Shown: positions 8,227 to 27,210 of the stretch, piece by piece
How positions within the stretch are numbered: the stretch's first letter is position 1
Layout: every line of letters begins with the position of its first letter
NCBI RefSeq assembly: GCF_014836425.1
Contig: NZ_JACSQW010000020.1
Span: 1 to 35,000, forward strand
Length of the DNA stretch: 35,000 nucleotides
Source: Limosilactobacillus avistercoris
GTDB taxonomy: Bacteria; Bacillota; Bacilli; Lactobacillales; Lactobacillaceae
Direction of reading: 5' to 3'
Position numbers and translations under genes: made by a program
The notes under the pieces: model-generated
What the model was told of the DNA's origin: nothing
Databases searched by the model: none
Seen by the model: the letters and a program-made list of their open reading frames with translations, nothing else

Positions 8227-9399
8227 ATGTTAGAAAAGACGTTCTATAAGTCACTGTTAAGCCACGCATTCAACATTCCAGTTAAGGTTGTTTACTGGGA
8301 CGGCAAGAGTGCAGTTTATGGTGAAGGTGAACCAGAAGTAACAATTACCTTCAAGGAAAAGATTCCTATTCGTGATGTTACAAAGAACGCCTCCATTGCC
8401 CTTGGGGAAGCATACATGGACGGCAAAATTGAAATTGACGGCAGTATTCAAAAGCTCATTACCGCTGCTTATGAAAGTGCCGGTAGCTTTATGCGCAATT
8501 CTAAGTTCCGGAAGTTTCTACCAAAGCAAGGGCACTCTGAAAAGGAAAGTGAAAGCGACGTTCAAAGCCACTATGATGTTGGTAACGACTTCTATAAGTT
8601 ATGGCTTGATGATACTTTGACTTACTCCTGTGCATACTTCGATCATGGCAACCGTGACGATTTGACTAAGGCACAAATTGACAAAGTTCACCACATTTTA
8701 AAGAAGCTTGATCCAAAGCCAGGCAAGACCTTGCTTGATATTGGTTGTGGTTGGGGTACTCTAATGCTCACTGCTGCTAAGGAATATGGCCTACGCGTTA
8801 CCGGGGTTACCTTAAGTGAAGAACAATTCAACCTTGTTCAAAAGCGGATTAAGGATGAAGGCCTTGAAGATGTTGCTGAAGTATTATTAGTTGATTACCG
8901 TGAACTTGGTGACCGGAAGTGGGACTACATTACTTCTGTAGGGATGTTCGAACACGTTGGTAAGGAAAACCTTGGCTTATACTTCAAGGATATTTACAAG
9001 TACCTTACTAGTGATGGTGTAGCCTTAGTCCACGGGATCACCCGTCAACAAGGCGGTGCATACAATGGTTGGATCAACAAGTACATCTTCCCAGGTGGCT
9101 ATGTTCCTGGTCTTAGTGAAATGGTTGATCACATTGTTGAAAACAACATGCAAATCGCTGATGTTGAAATGCTTCGTCGTCATTACCAACGGACTTTGGA
9201 AATTTGGGACATGAATTTCAATGCCCACCGTTCCCAAATTGAAGACATGATGGGCGATCGGTTCACCCGGATGTGGGATCTCTATCTCCAAGCCTGTGCT
9301 GCTTCTTTCGAATCCGGTAATATTGATGTTATTCAATACCTTATTACTAAAGGTGCTTCCGGTAAGAATCTTCCAATGACGAGGGATTATATATACTAG
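8227..9399 (+). CDS. cfa: Cyclopropane-fatty-acyl-phospholipid synthase
   Basis: Adds a methylene group from S-adenosylmethionine across the double bond of unsaturated acyl chains in membrane phospholipids, giving lactobacillic-type cyclopropane acids. The 390-residue product has the N-terminal lipid-docking domain (about 1-105), [26 protein letters not shown] (113-138), the SAM motif LLDIGCGWG (169-177), [10 protein letters not shown], and GMFEHVG. The frame is open upstream from 7918, but that part is antisense to the permease gene; the ATG at 8227 matches family length and follows GAGGGA. The TAG stop (9397-9399) is also the start of the structured repeat that follows, and the last residues (MTRDYIY) are unremarkable. 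Confidence 0.95.
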
Positions 9400-9505
9400 A
9401 GTGTGAGCCAGCAAAGGACTTACGGAAAGTTAGCAATTTCTCCCGACGAAGGCGACTAGCGCCTAGGAGGGAGGTTGCTAACTCTAGTAAGTCCCTGGCG
9501 AACAC
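9397..9505 (+). repeat. Structured repeat element A with tandem G-A motif
   Basis: GC-rich element beginning at the cfa stop codon. It folds as nested stems: GTGT-GA-GCCAG (9401-9411) with CTGGC-GA-ACAC (9495-9505), giving two adjacent G-A mismatches; GGACTTAC (9416-9423) with GTAAGTCC (9487-9494); GTTAGCAA (9429-9436) with TTGCTAAC (9475-9482); a TTT/G asymmetric loop; CTCCC (9440-9444) with GGGAG (9469-9473); GGCG/CGCC at the tip. The same plan recurs at 26984-27093 and 27104-27210 with different bases. There is no T-run, so it is not a simple terminator. Function unknown. Confidence 0.85.
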
Positions 9506-9650
9506 GTTTTGACCGTGTTGCCTAGAACGCTCAAGGGAAATTAGGCTGAGCGCGTCTTAGCTATGTTGTCTATAACCCCAGGCGGAAGTTGCGGTCACGG
9601 CGAGCAGATCTTGGCTACGCTGCAGTAGAAGTTAGCTCAAGCTAGCGCAT
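9506..9650 (+). repeat. Degenerate tandem tail modules after element A
   Basis: Three diverged units each resemble 'ACACGTTT..AC..GTTGC..TAGAAC': GTTTTGACCGTGTTGCCTAG (9506-9525), GTCTTAGCTATGTTGTCTAT (9553-9572) and ATCTTGGCTACGCTGCAGTA (9608-9627). Between them lie partial copies of the element's 3' arm (such as TTAGGCTGAGCGCG, 9541-9554). They look like repeated, decayed 3' ends of the same element family. The rest of the stretch up to 9650 shows no coding signal. Confidence 0.6.
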
Positions 9651-9656
9651 ACCAAC

Positions 9657-9706
9657 TAAAATAATCTGGCAAAGAACGTTAATATTCTTTACCAGATTAT
9701 TTTTTA
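9657..9706 (+). terminator. Terminator downstream of cfa and element A
   Basis: AATAATCTGG (9660-9669) pairs with CCAGATTATT (9692-9701), extended after one mismatch by AAAGAA / TTCTTT, and is followed by TTTTT. It ends transcription before the purE operator. Confidence 0.85.
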
Positions 9707-9714
9707 CCCCCTAT

Positions 9715-24865: not shown

Positions 24866-25444
24866 ATGAGAGTTGCCATTTTTGCTTCCGGAAACGGAAC
24901 CAACTTTGAAGTATTAACAAACCATTTCCAAAAGGGTGATATTCCGGGAAAGTTAGCGTTGCTCTTTTGCAACCACCCAGATGCGCCAGTAATGGAACGG
25001 GCAAAACGCCTTGGTGTCCCTGCAGAAAGTTTCACCGTTAAGTCATGCGGGGGAAAAGAAGAATATGAAAAGCAGGTACTAAAGCTTCTACAAAAGTACC
25101 AAATCGACTTTATTATTCTTGCTGGTTATCTACGGGTGGTCGGCCCAACAATCCTGGATCACTACGATTATCGGATTGTGAACCTTCACCCAGCATGGTT
25201 GCCAGAATATCCAGGACTTCATTCGATCGAGCGGGCCTTTAATGACCATAAAAAGCAAACAGGGGTCACCGTTCACTATATCGATTCTGGTTTGGATTCC
25301 GGACCGATTATTGCCCAACGACATGTGCCAATTTTAGCTGATGACACTGTTGATACTCTTGAAGCCCGTGTCCATGAGACTGAGCATCAATTGTATCCCG
25401 AAGCGGTAAAGCAAGTTTTGACAGAATTAGAAAAGGAGAATTAA
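24866..25444 (+). CDS. purN: GAR transformylase (PurN)
   Basis: Transfers a formyl group from 10-formyl-tetrahydrofolate to GAR. The 192-residue product begins MRVAIFASGNGTNFEVL and keeps the catalytic trio Asn106, His108 (VNLHPAWLPEYPGLHS) and Asp144 (YIDSGLDSGPI). A TTG at 24860 is also in frame, but TGAGG (24854-24858) is spaced for the ATG at 24866. It depends on folate, as does PurH. purH follows after 3 bp. Confidence 0.96.
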   Translation: MRVAIFASGNGTNFEVLTNHFQKGDIPGKLALLFCNHPDAPVMERAKRLGVPAESFTVKSCGGKEEYEKQVLKLLQKYQIDFIILAGYLRVVGPTILDHYDYRIVNLHPAWLPEYPGLHSIERAFNDHKKQTGVTVHYIDSGLDSGPIIAQRHVPILADDTVDTLEARVHETEHQLYPEAVKQVLTELEKEN

Positions 25445-25447
25445 TCC

Positions 25448-26986
25448 ATGAAACGTGCATTAGTAAGTGTATCTGACAAGACAAACCTGGTTCCTTTTGT
25501 TAAGGGACTTGAAGATAACGGCTTTGAAATTGTTTCTACTGGTGGAACAAAAAAGGTTCTTGACGATGCCGGTGTTAAGACAATTAGTATTGAAGACGTT
25601 ACCCACTTCCCAGAAATCCTTGATGGCCGGGTTAAGACATTGAATCCTTATGTTCATGGTGGTTTGTTGGCACGGCGGGAATTGCCAGAACACATGGCTA
25701 CTTTGAAGAAGCTCAACATCACGCCAATTGATTTAGTTTGTGTTAACCTTTACCCATTTAAGCAAACAATCGAAAAACCAGATGTAAAGCTTGCTGATGC
25801 AATCGAAAACATTGATATTGGTGGCCCAAGCATGGTTCGTTCAGCTGCAAAGAACTATCGTGACGTTACCATCGTTGTTGATCAAAACGACTACGATCAA
25901 GTATTAAGTGAAATTAAGGAAAATGGTTCGACTACTTTGGAAACCCGTTCAAAGTTAGCTGCCAAGGCTTTCCGTCACACAGCTGCTTACGATGCTTTGA
26001 TTTCCCAATACCTAACTAAGCAAAATGGCCTTGAAGATCCTGAAAAGTTGACTTTGACTTGGAACTTGAAGGAAACAATGCGTTACGGTGAAAACAGTCA
26101 CCAAAAGGCATGGTTATACGAAGATGCAATGCCAAAAGCCTTCTCTGTTTTATCTGCAAAGCAACTTCATGGGAAGAAGCTTTCTTACAACAACATCAAA
26201 GACGCTGATGAAGCATTACGGTGCATCCGTGAATTTGATGAACCAGCTGTTGTTGCTATGAAGCACATGAACCCTTGTGGTATTGGTCATGGTGAAAACC
26301 TCGAACAAGCATGGGATCGCGCTTACGCTGCTGATACTGTTTCAATTTTTGGTGGGGTAATCGCCCTTAACCGGAAAGTTGACTTAGCAACTGCAGAAAA
26401 GATGCACAAGATCTTCCTTGAAATTGTAATCGCCCCTGAATTTGACGATGATGCTTACGAAGTCTTGGCAAAGAAGAAGAATATCCGTTTGTTGAGCCTC
26501 GACTTTAGCAAGAAGGATGAACCAACTAAGCATGAAGTAGTTTCTGTAATGGGTGGAATGTTAATGCAAGAACAAGATACCCTCAAGGAAGACTACCATG
26601 ACTGGAAGTGTGTCACTGATGTTCAACCAACTGAAGAACAATTGAAGACTTTGATGTTTGCTTGGAAGGCCGTAAAGCACGCTAAGTCAAACGCAATTAT
26701 TTTGGCTAACGATGAACGGACTCTTGGTGTTGGTGAAGGTCAACCAAATCGGATTGACTCCCTGAAGATTGCTGTTAAGCACGCCGGGGATGACATTGAC
26801 GACCGGACCGTTATGGCCTCTGATGCCTTCTTCCCATTTGGCGATTGCGTTGAATATGCCGGTAAGCACGGTATCAAAGCCGTCGTTCAACCCGGTGGTT
26901 CCATCCGTGACCAAGAATCCATCGACATGGCCAACAAATACGGCATCGCCATGGTCACCACAGGAGTACGGCATTTTAGGCACTAG
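25448..26986 (+). CDS. purH: Bifunctional AICAR transformylase / IMP cyclohydrolase (PurH)
   Basis: Performs the last two steps to IMP. The N-terminal cyclohydrolase domain (about 1-195) has [32 protein letters not shown] and HGGLLARR; the C-terminal transformylase domain has [24 protein letters not shown] and [26 protein letters not shown] sequence ending TTGVRHFRH, the normal end of the family. The 512-residue length is complete. The TAG stop (26984-26986) is shared with the start of a structured repeat. GGAGAA lies before the ATG. Confidence 0.97.
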
Positions 26987-27099
26987 AGTGCGAGCCCGTT
27001 AAAAGCTCCCGGATGATAACGATTTCTCCAGGAGAATGGTGGCTTGCACCATCTCCTGGAGGTCGTTATCTCGAGGGAGCTTAGAGCGAGCACGTTTCA
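26984..27099 (+). repeat. Structured repeat element B1 with tandem G-A motif
   Basis: Starts at the purH stop codon. Stems: GTGC-GA-GC (26988-26995) with GC-GA-GCAC (27086-27093); AAGCTCCC (27003-27010) with GGGAGCTT (27075-27082); GATAACGA (27015-27022) with TCGTTATC (27063-27070); a TTT/G asymmetric loop; CTCCAGGAGA (27026-27035) with TCTCCTGGAG (27052-27061), capped by TGGTG/CACCA. The plan matches elements A and B2 while the bases differ in matching pairs. It ends in GTTTC like the others. No T-run follows, so read-through to purD is expected. Confidence 0.85.
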
Positions 27100-27101
27100 A
27101 T

Positions 27102-27210
27102 CAGAGTGTGAAGCCGTTAAAACCTTCCGGTGGCTAACGATTTCTCCACCGAACGGCGTCTCGTCGTCGGAGGTGGAGGTCGTTAGCTCGAGGAAGGTTA
27201 GGCTGAACAC
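27102..27210 (+). repeat. Structured repeat element B2 with tandem G-A motif
   Basis: Follows B1 by a few bases. Stems: GTGT-GA-AGCC (27106-27115) with GGCT-GA-ACAC (27201-27210); AACCTTCC (27121-27128) with GGAAGGTT (27192-27199); GCTAACGA (27133-27140) with TCGTTAGC (27180-27187); a TTT/G loop; CTCCACC (27144-27150) with GGTGGAG (27172-27178); a weaker tip ACGGCG/CGTCGT. Compared with B1 nearly every changed stem base has a compensating change opposite, which supports a selected or duplicated RNA fold. Confidence 0.85.

Follow-up and report, generated by a model that had tools for sequence, protein, structure and literature searches.

How short extragenic repeats move is seldom understood. 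The ERIC sequences of enterobacteria are imperfect palindromes of about 127 bp that are present in transcripts, and the attC sites of integrons fold as single strands into hairpins whose sequence is free and whose unpaired features serve for recognition; integron cassettes reshuffle in arrays. The REP and REPIN sequences of the REP/RAYT system are dispersed, extragenic palindromes of high copy number. One account gives REPs a length of 20–40 bp and a tag, GTAG or CGTC, at one of their ends, and regards them as non-autonomous and mobilised in trans (PMC3733652); another places a share of E. coli REPs 1–20 nt behind open reading frames (ORFs) and 446 of 4,072 within 15 nt of a stop codon (PMC12306157). 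Within the Lactobacillales, Streptococcus pneumoniae has the structured interspersed repeats BOX, RUP and SPRITE; BOX is modular with inner units variable in number, and SPRITE lies near gene 3′ ends (PMC3049150). Here we analyse a family of hairpins represented by three complete elements, A, B1 and B2, in a 35,000-nt stretch of Limosilactobacillus avistercoris DNA (positions 1 to 35,000 of contig NZ_JACSQW010000020.1, hereafter the window; genome of 1.80 Mb in 56 contigs). Genomes and loci are cited by our own G and L numbers.

The hairpin family is real, widespread and undescribed in the searches made, including the literature searched, which was covered in part. We put at roughly an even chance the reading that its members, each of about 120 nt, are non-autonomous, REP-like mobile hairpin cassettes found in the Lactobacillales. 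An earlier, sequence-only reading of the window had offered a structured mobile repeat as one interpretation, and this proved to be its best-supported part, by dispersal, turnover at slots and exchange of cassettes.

The stems named in that reading were located where it had placed them in all three elements by a sequence check. Its formula of one fold but not one sequence stands for the fold: the minimum folds of A, B1 and B2 reach −58.0, −65.6 and −59.3 kcal/mol (z-scores −7.75, −9.30 and −6.92), and none of 200 shuffles was as stable for any of them. The sequence half of the formula fails, with B1 and B2 71% identical and three-way alignments averaging 75% and 80% column identity. The element starts were placed correctly and the 3′ ends of A and B2 were not, their tails (ending in ..GCnnTAGAA) extending to 9527 and 27233. 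Three is the number of full units; beyond them, 5′-truncated copies occur at both sites (Table 1).

Comparison of six distant members, then more, revealed constant ends, AGAGTGYGA at the 5′ side and GARCACGTTTC at the 3′ side, with long stems between them that differ. Units are about 115–138 nt long and typically start with TAGAGTG. Their base consists of AGA and GTGY, above which lies the tandem G-A:G-A mismatch. A helix of about 8 bp separates the mismatch from a bulge of 4 nt in the 5′ strand; next come about 7 more bp, then an inner loop, and finally the upper stem, which varies. The bulge is GGGT in 52 of 124 copies. The tandem G-A motif noted earlier recurs in 105 of the 124, a share that is inflated because many loci came from GA-containing search patterns (53 further matches were dropped on failing a stem test), and is replaced by Watson-Crick dinucleotides in 6. 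Such paired replacements were seen at L018, at G252:C11 near 87091, and in G267, G118 and G170 at a slot in genus g38 described below; the replacing letters are TC with GA, except at L018, which has others. Tails vary, some containing GCAGTAGAA and others GCCTAGAA, and by eye a tail like CRRCTATnnnGCnnAGAA follows the unit in several genera. Where tandem units were read, 0–7 nt separate CACGTTT from the next AGAGTG.

The compensating changes proposed for the stems were borne out. In an alignment of 16 copies from the L. avistercoris genome with its RNAalifold structure, 21 of 36 pairs are altered on both sides, compared with 9.7 ± 1.9 in shuffles (0/500 as high) and 2–8 in slid versions of the structure, and 92.7% of cells are paired versus 82.9% in shuffles; kinship alone can beat shuffles, and a structure derived from the same sequences is favoured over its slid versions. 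This covariation fits either selection on structure or mutational events that correct one arm to match its partner. The family also lacks a name in Rfam 15, in line with the sequence-only reading, which had recognised none: no family passed its curated threshold at the elements in the whole window, in two stretches searched at a lax threshold, or at 17 loci of distant members. The sole lax match near the elements (E 2.1) overlaps a terminator-like hairpin downstream of A. Elsewhere in the scanned sequences only T-box, PyrR, THF, rRNA and tRNA families matched.

A covariance-model search, which the sequence-only reading had suggested, found abundant further copies with conserved pairing in the same genome, the genus and the Lactobacillaceae. 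With B2 plus its surroundings as query, BLAST gave 24 matches in the L. avistercoris genome. Our covariance model, R1, with 150 of 337 candidates scored, gave 36 there at E<1e-16; relaxing the cut-off to E<=0.1 raised the number to 65, the weak ones including palindrome echoes on the reverse strand. R1 also matched 11 of 50 Limosilactobacillus genomes. In a scan of 301 genomes of Lactobacillaceae, where scoring covered 11 candidates in each, it matched 57 (14 of 40 genera). An end pattern consisting of AGAGTGYGA and GARCACGTTTC separated by a gap of 84–114 nt matched 81 of the 301 genomes and 17 of the 40 genera, the reversed pattern matching none; the highest number of exact copies, 83, was found in G178. 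The end pattern occurs in 4 of 247 genomes from other families of Lactobacillales and in 0 of 228 genomes sampled from the class outside this order. Among named records, the 3′ motif is present in Limosilactobacillus vaginalis, frumenti, portuensis, urinaemulieris and fastidiosus, in Candidatus merdavium and in Lactiplantibacillus songbeiensis; lone matches to it in unrelated phyla were taken as chance. A songbeiensis copy and a G193 copy have upstream flanks that are 91% identical, and from such sequence comparison genus g38 is probably Lactiplantibacillus.

Members of the family lie in sense orientation directly behind gene ends. From 161 elements in the examined loci we obtained 153 unique sites, duplicates and sites near locus ends being dropped, and called a site stop-adjacent if a sense ORF with at least 80 codons had its stop at −12 to +2 nt of the element's 5′ end. 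This applied to 61 of the 153 sites versus 368 of 9552 random non-coding positions (3.9%), and at 28 of the 61 the stop lies at offset 0, its TAG completed by the element's own AG. The converse arrangement, in which a convergent ORF terminates at the 3′ end of the element, occurred at 2 of 153. Twenty of the remaining sites follow another copy, 5 follow a terminator and 67 are other; by eye, the last class takes in additional tandem copies and terminator T-runs, together with the G178 repeat sites described below. A repeat of the statistic over 168 sites (64 stop-adjacent, 31 tandem, 73 other, 3 converse) is not relied on because it includes a slot chosen for being occupied. In the other Lactobacillales families, copies fold alike, and their 13 sites include 5 that are stop-adjacent and 5 that are tandem. 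Within the window, A comes after a cfa-like ORF, and the space between purH and purD, likely genes of one operon, is occupied by B1/B2.

The 3′ ends in question are not limited to those of protein-coding genes. A G271 copy (L122, 1498–1695) starts 3 nt after the Rfam end of a 23S rRNA, ahead of 5S, and a copy in L063 about 9 nt after a tRNA-Thr. The end pattern occurs at three more places in G271, four in total, of which one was inspected. In genus g14 (L201–L208; G178 and G223) another, distinct palindromic repeat about 200 nt long stands directly upstream of many copies, as at L206:3734 on the forward strand, and the hairpin copy behind it varies. The G178 sites of this kind blur the stop-codon statistic, in which they were kept as "other".

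Truncated copies were counted by the end that they retain. At Limosilactobacillus loci, 54 of 124 3′ ends have no 5′ partner versus 4 of 67 5′ ends with no 3′ partner, a few of the 54 being chance matches in genes and two of the 4 having, by eye, a degenerate partner. Most solo 3′ ends are strung behind the ..TAGAA of a preceding copy, with varying start points, and other Lactobacillaceae loci have 13 solo 3′ and 4 solo 5′ ends. In one array (L058, 1501–1860) a full copy is followed by at least five 5′-truncated copies of two alternating kinds. The idea that truncation affects 5′ ends only is weakened by four loci of other families, where the trend is reversed, with 0 solo 3′ and 5 solo 5′ ends.

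One rival reading is RNA-templated copying. Here a polymerase copying element RNA would jump templates and thereby link the copy to another RNA at its 3′ end; recombination would then carry the hybrid cDNA into the gene from which that RNA came. The recipient 3′ end could be that of an mRNA cut or trimmed at its stop, a terminated transcript, rRNA, tRNA or an older element. Such a route would explain why sense-oriented 5′ ends abut 3′ ends of several kinds of RNA, and the chains in which the 3′ end is intact and the 5′ truncation variable. It is worth testing because copies are polar toward RNA 3′ ends, but we think it unlikely: the RVT_1 domain is missing from the L. avistercoris genome, G042 and G011 and shows no association over 48 genomes; most 5′-truncated copies sit, by eye, after another copy and not at a bare gene end; and arrays at the four other-family loci end with 3′-truncated units. 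A bacterial counterpart of SINEs is in our estimate a slightly longer shot: the element would be a small, structured RNA, and its cDNA, on being linked to cellular RNAs at their 3′ ends, would come to rest exactly after genes, tRNA and rRNA, with 5′-truncated copies chained after older ones.

Mobility and exchange of hairpin cassettes are supported by comparison of species. A purH query matched in 39 of 47 genomes of the genus. Of 30 loci examined, 25 have nothing of the family behind purH and 5 have copies (G000, G023, G042, G013) or a short 5′ remnant (G048), beginning 1–8 nt from the stop codon's first base. The first unit, which starts 1 or 8 nt after that base, varies among genomes, most pairs having similarities of 0.65–0.80 (0.89 for G023 vs G013), and B2 is common to G000 and G023 at 0.99. 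At the slot in genus g38, the gene is present in 14 of 14 genomes, with a copy or shortened copy in 8 and none in 6, starting 2–22 nt from the first base of the stop; short pattern matches distant from the slot in L162 and G215 were taken as chance. Here G267 and G118 agree at 0.96 and other full-length pairs at 0.60–0.79. Since same-slot copies differ between species, the sequence behind core genes such as purH is altered.

Exchange was followed between G235 and G252, in whose syntenic stretches we paired ten slots. Hairpin cores agree at six (0.83–0.97, except for one pair, L193-11156/L194-10760, whose 0.79 is an artefact of the element start; its alignment is near-identical and it was counted among the six). 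Another of the six, L190+9165/L195-7844 (0.83), is open to doubt, as a paralog in its own genome is closer (0.89). At the other four slots the cores differ, with similarities of 0.65–0.76 against a median of 0.69 for random family pairs (465 pairs). Two of these are single slots with flanks conserved on both sides (95/96% and 99/92%), where identity shifts within a few nt of AGAGTG and ACACGTTTC; at one of them the adjoining terminator hairpin is retained. The other two are the first and last units of one three-unit array with a shared upstream flank (97.6%). Its order 1-2-3 reads 3-2-1 in the other species with orientation unchanged, the last G235 unit equalling the first G252 unit (0.97), and the sequence after the array differs. 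Judging from these alignments, orthologous slots can retain their surroundings while the hairpin is swapped for another member of the family.

Swaps confined to within a few nt of shared ends are also what one would expect with no dedicated enzyme, if breaks or stalled replication at the hairpins, slippage, ectopic conversion and quasi-palindrome correction spread, swapped and eroded the copies. A mosaic copy inside an array, with its base from one member and its apex from another, and the deletion remnants in G048 behind purH and in G335 fit this account too. Yet it leaves new slots and gene-end polarity unexplained, the shared ends of about 10–12 nt are short for recombination, and correction from arm to arm would erase the G-A mismatches and bulge, which persist (in a sample biased toward GA). 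We regard it as improbable. The weakest reading, a cis-acting RNA of the 3′ untranslated region (UTR) kept for mRNA stability or translation control with mobility secondary, has in its favour the covariation, the sense placement beside stop codons, the situation of A between a stop codon and a likely terminator, and the report that E. coli REPs <=15 nt from a stop codon stall ribosomes (PMC12306157), but it seems very improbable given that occupancy is not conserved at the purH loci (25/30 empty) or in the g38 genomes (6/14).

In the preferred reading, that of REP-like mobile cassettes, the constant parts would be the two ends, which form the base stem with its tandem G-A mismatch, and short unpaired inner motifs, namely the GGGT-like bulge some 8 bp up from the G-A pairs and the inner loop, the helices being free to vary. 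An enzyme acting in trans would recognise the folded single strand via these parts. That a folded strand is its substrate we infer from the conserved mismatches amid free helices, by likeness to the substrates in attC and REP systems. The enzyme would place new copies in the positions observed, directly after gene 3′ ends in sense orientation and beside older copies. As the species comparison suggests, an incoming copy would displace the older one from its slot; the slot would persist and the hairpin change. Copies that are transcribed would lie in 3′ UTRs or, as with B1/B2, between likely operon genes, where by analogy with REPs they may affect mRNA stability or translation.

Several results weigh against this reading. 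Y1_Tnp is not associated with the family (present in 8 of 24 genomes rich in elements and in 12 of 24 that are element-free; none in the L. avistercoris genome), and neither is RVT_1 (7 of 24 vs 8 of 24; none in that genome), element-free meaning no match to R1 in the genus scan or to the end pattern; the reverse transcriptase search used the RVT_1 model, which divergent enzymes may escape. Among 792 ORFs <=1.5 kb from copies there was no recurrent partner, an ABC ATPase alone occurring in more than 4 locus groups (best 25 clusters). Plasmids gave no match for two queries, and a single stretch of the viral contigs carries the end pattern (L219, 203–324, forward strand). No target duplication was readable in the comparisons made, in which the species with empty sites are too remote for borders to be placed exactly. 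Finally, the three other swapped G235 cores have G235 paralogs at 0.89–0.93, and their donor is not fixed because G252 also holds similar copies elsewhere (0.87–0.91).

Two candidate mobilisers were rejected. A RAYT-type transposase is missing from the L. avistercoris genome and shows no association over the 48 genomes. In G048 (L212, 471–2651) an ORF, an element, truncated copies and a terminator-like hairpin are followed by a group II intron with a reverse transcriptase, which was judged incidental because the intron lies behind the terminator-like hairpin downstream of the array. A classical MITE would be expected to come with a target-site duplication and a related full-length transposon; no ORF-bearing relative was seen among the neighbouring ORFs, to which the search was confined.

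Features of the window are collected in Table 1. The likely terminator after A is absent from the list of a simple terminator scan.

Table 1. Hairpin elements, adjoining genes and known regulators in the window.
Feature	Coordinates	Strand	Basis and remarks
Element A, complete hairpin unit plus 3′ tail	9397..9527	+	Covariance-model score 119.9 bits; fold; sequence
TAG, opening bases of A and stop codon of the upstream cyclopropane-fatty-acid-synthase-like ORF	9397..9399		
5′-truncated copy 1, abuts tail of A, only 3′ end intact	9528..9575	+	Solo 3′ end; borders by eye
5′-truncated copy 2, different subfamily (..GCGGTCACGGCGAGCAG..GCAGTAGAA)	9576..9630	+	Borders by eye
Possible additional fragment (GTTAGCTCAAG)	9631..9641	+	Sequence only; weak
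Separate hairpin then T-run, likely terminator after cfa and array	9658..9709	+	Fold, stem 9658–9703; T-run by eye
Element B1, complete hairpin unit without tail	26984..27101	+	Covariance-model score 111.5 bits
TAG, start of B1 and purH stop codon	26984..26986		
Element B2, complete hairpin unit with tail, tandem to B1	27102..27233	+	Covariance-model score 147.1 bits
5′-truncated copy like the 3′ half of B1, abuts tail of B2	27234..27285	+	Borders by eye
ORF upstream of A, cfa-like	7918..9399	+	CMAS domain from residue 207; true start possibly further in
purH, upstream of B1/B2	25448..26986	+	
purD, downstream of B1/B2	27336..28592	+	
T-box	33021..33221	+	Rfam
T-box	17937..18186	-	Rfam
PyrR site	6886..6985	-	Rfam
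THF riboswitch	31067..31160	+	Rfam

The hairpin family thus poses two testable questions: how a gene-free repeat finds gene 3′ ends, and which enzyme moves a hairpin of nearly free sequence. Compared with intrinsic terminators, the element hairpin is followed by ACGTTTC-like sequence with no direct T-run, and at A a separate hairpin with a T-run lies downstream. A retroelement would call for a host reverse transcriptase, and RVT_1 is missing from the L. avistercoris genome. The family differs from ERIC in its hosts and, by the usual description of ERIC, in its ends. Unlike attC sites, it shows no cassette genes, and its copies are dispersed behind unrelated genes. BOX, RUP and SPRITE are likewise structured interspersed repeats of Lactobacillales; BOX is set apart by description, each unit of the present family being a complete hairpin to which whole or truncated copies are added. 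With REP/REPIN and RAYT the family shares dispersed, extragenic, high-copy palindromes. It differs from them in its length of about 120 nt, in ending with AGAGTGYGA and GARCACGTTTC in place of the REP tag, and in having no association with Y1_Tnp as a cognate transposase. The life style is REP-like, yet the REP/RAYT features of size, tag and Y1 partner that were tested all fail.

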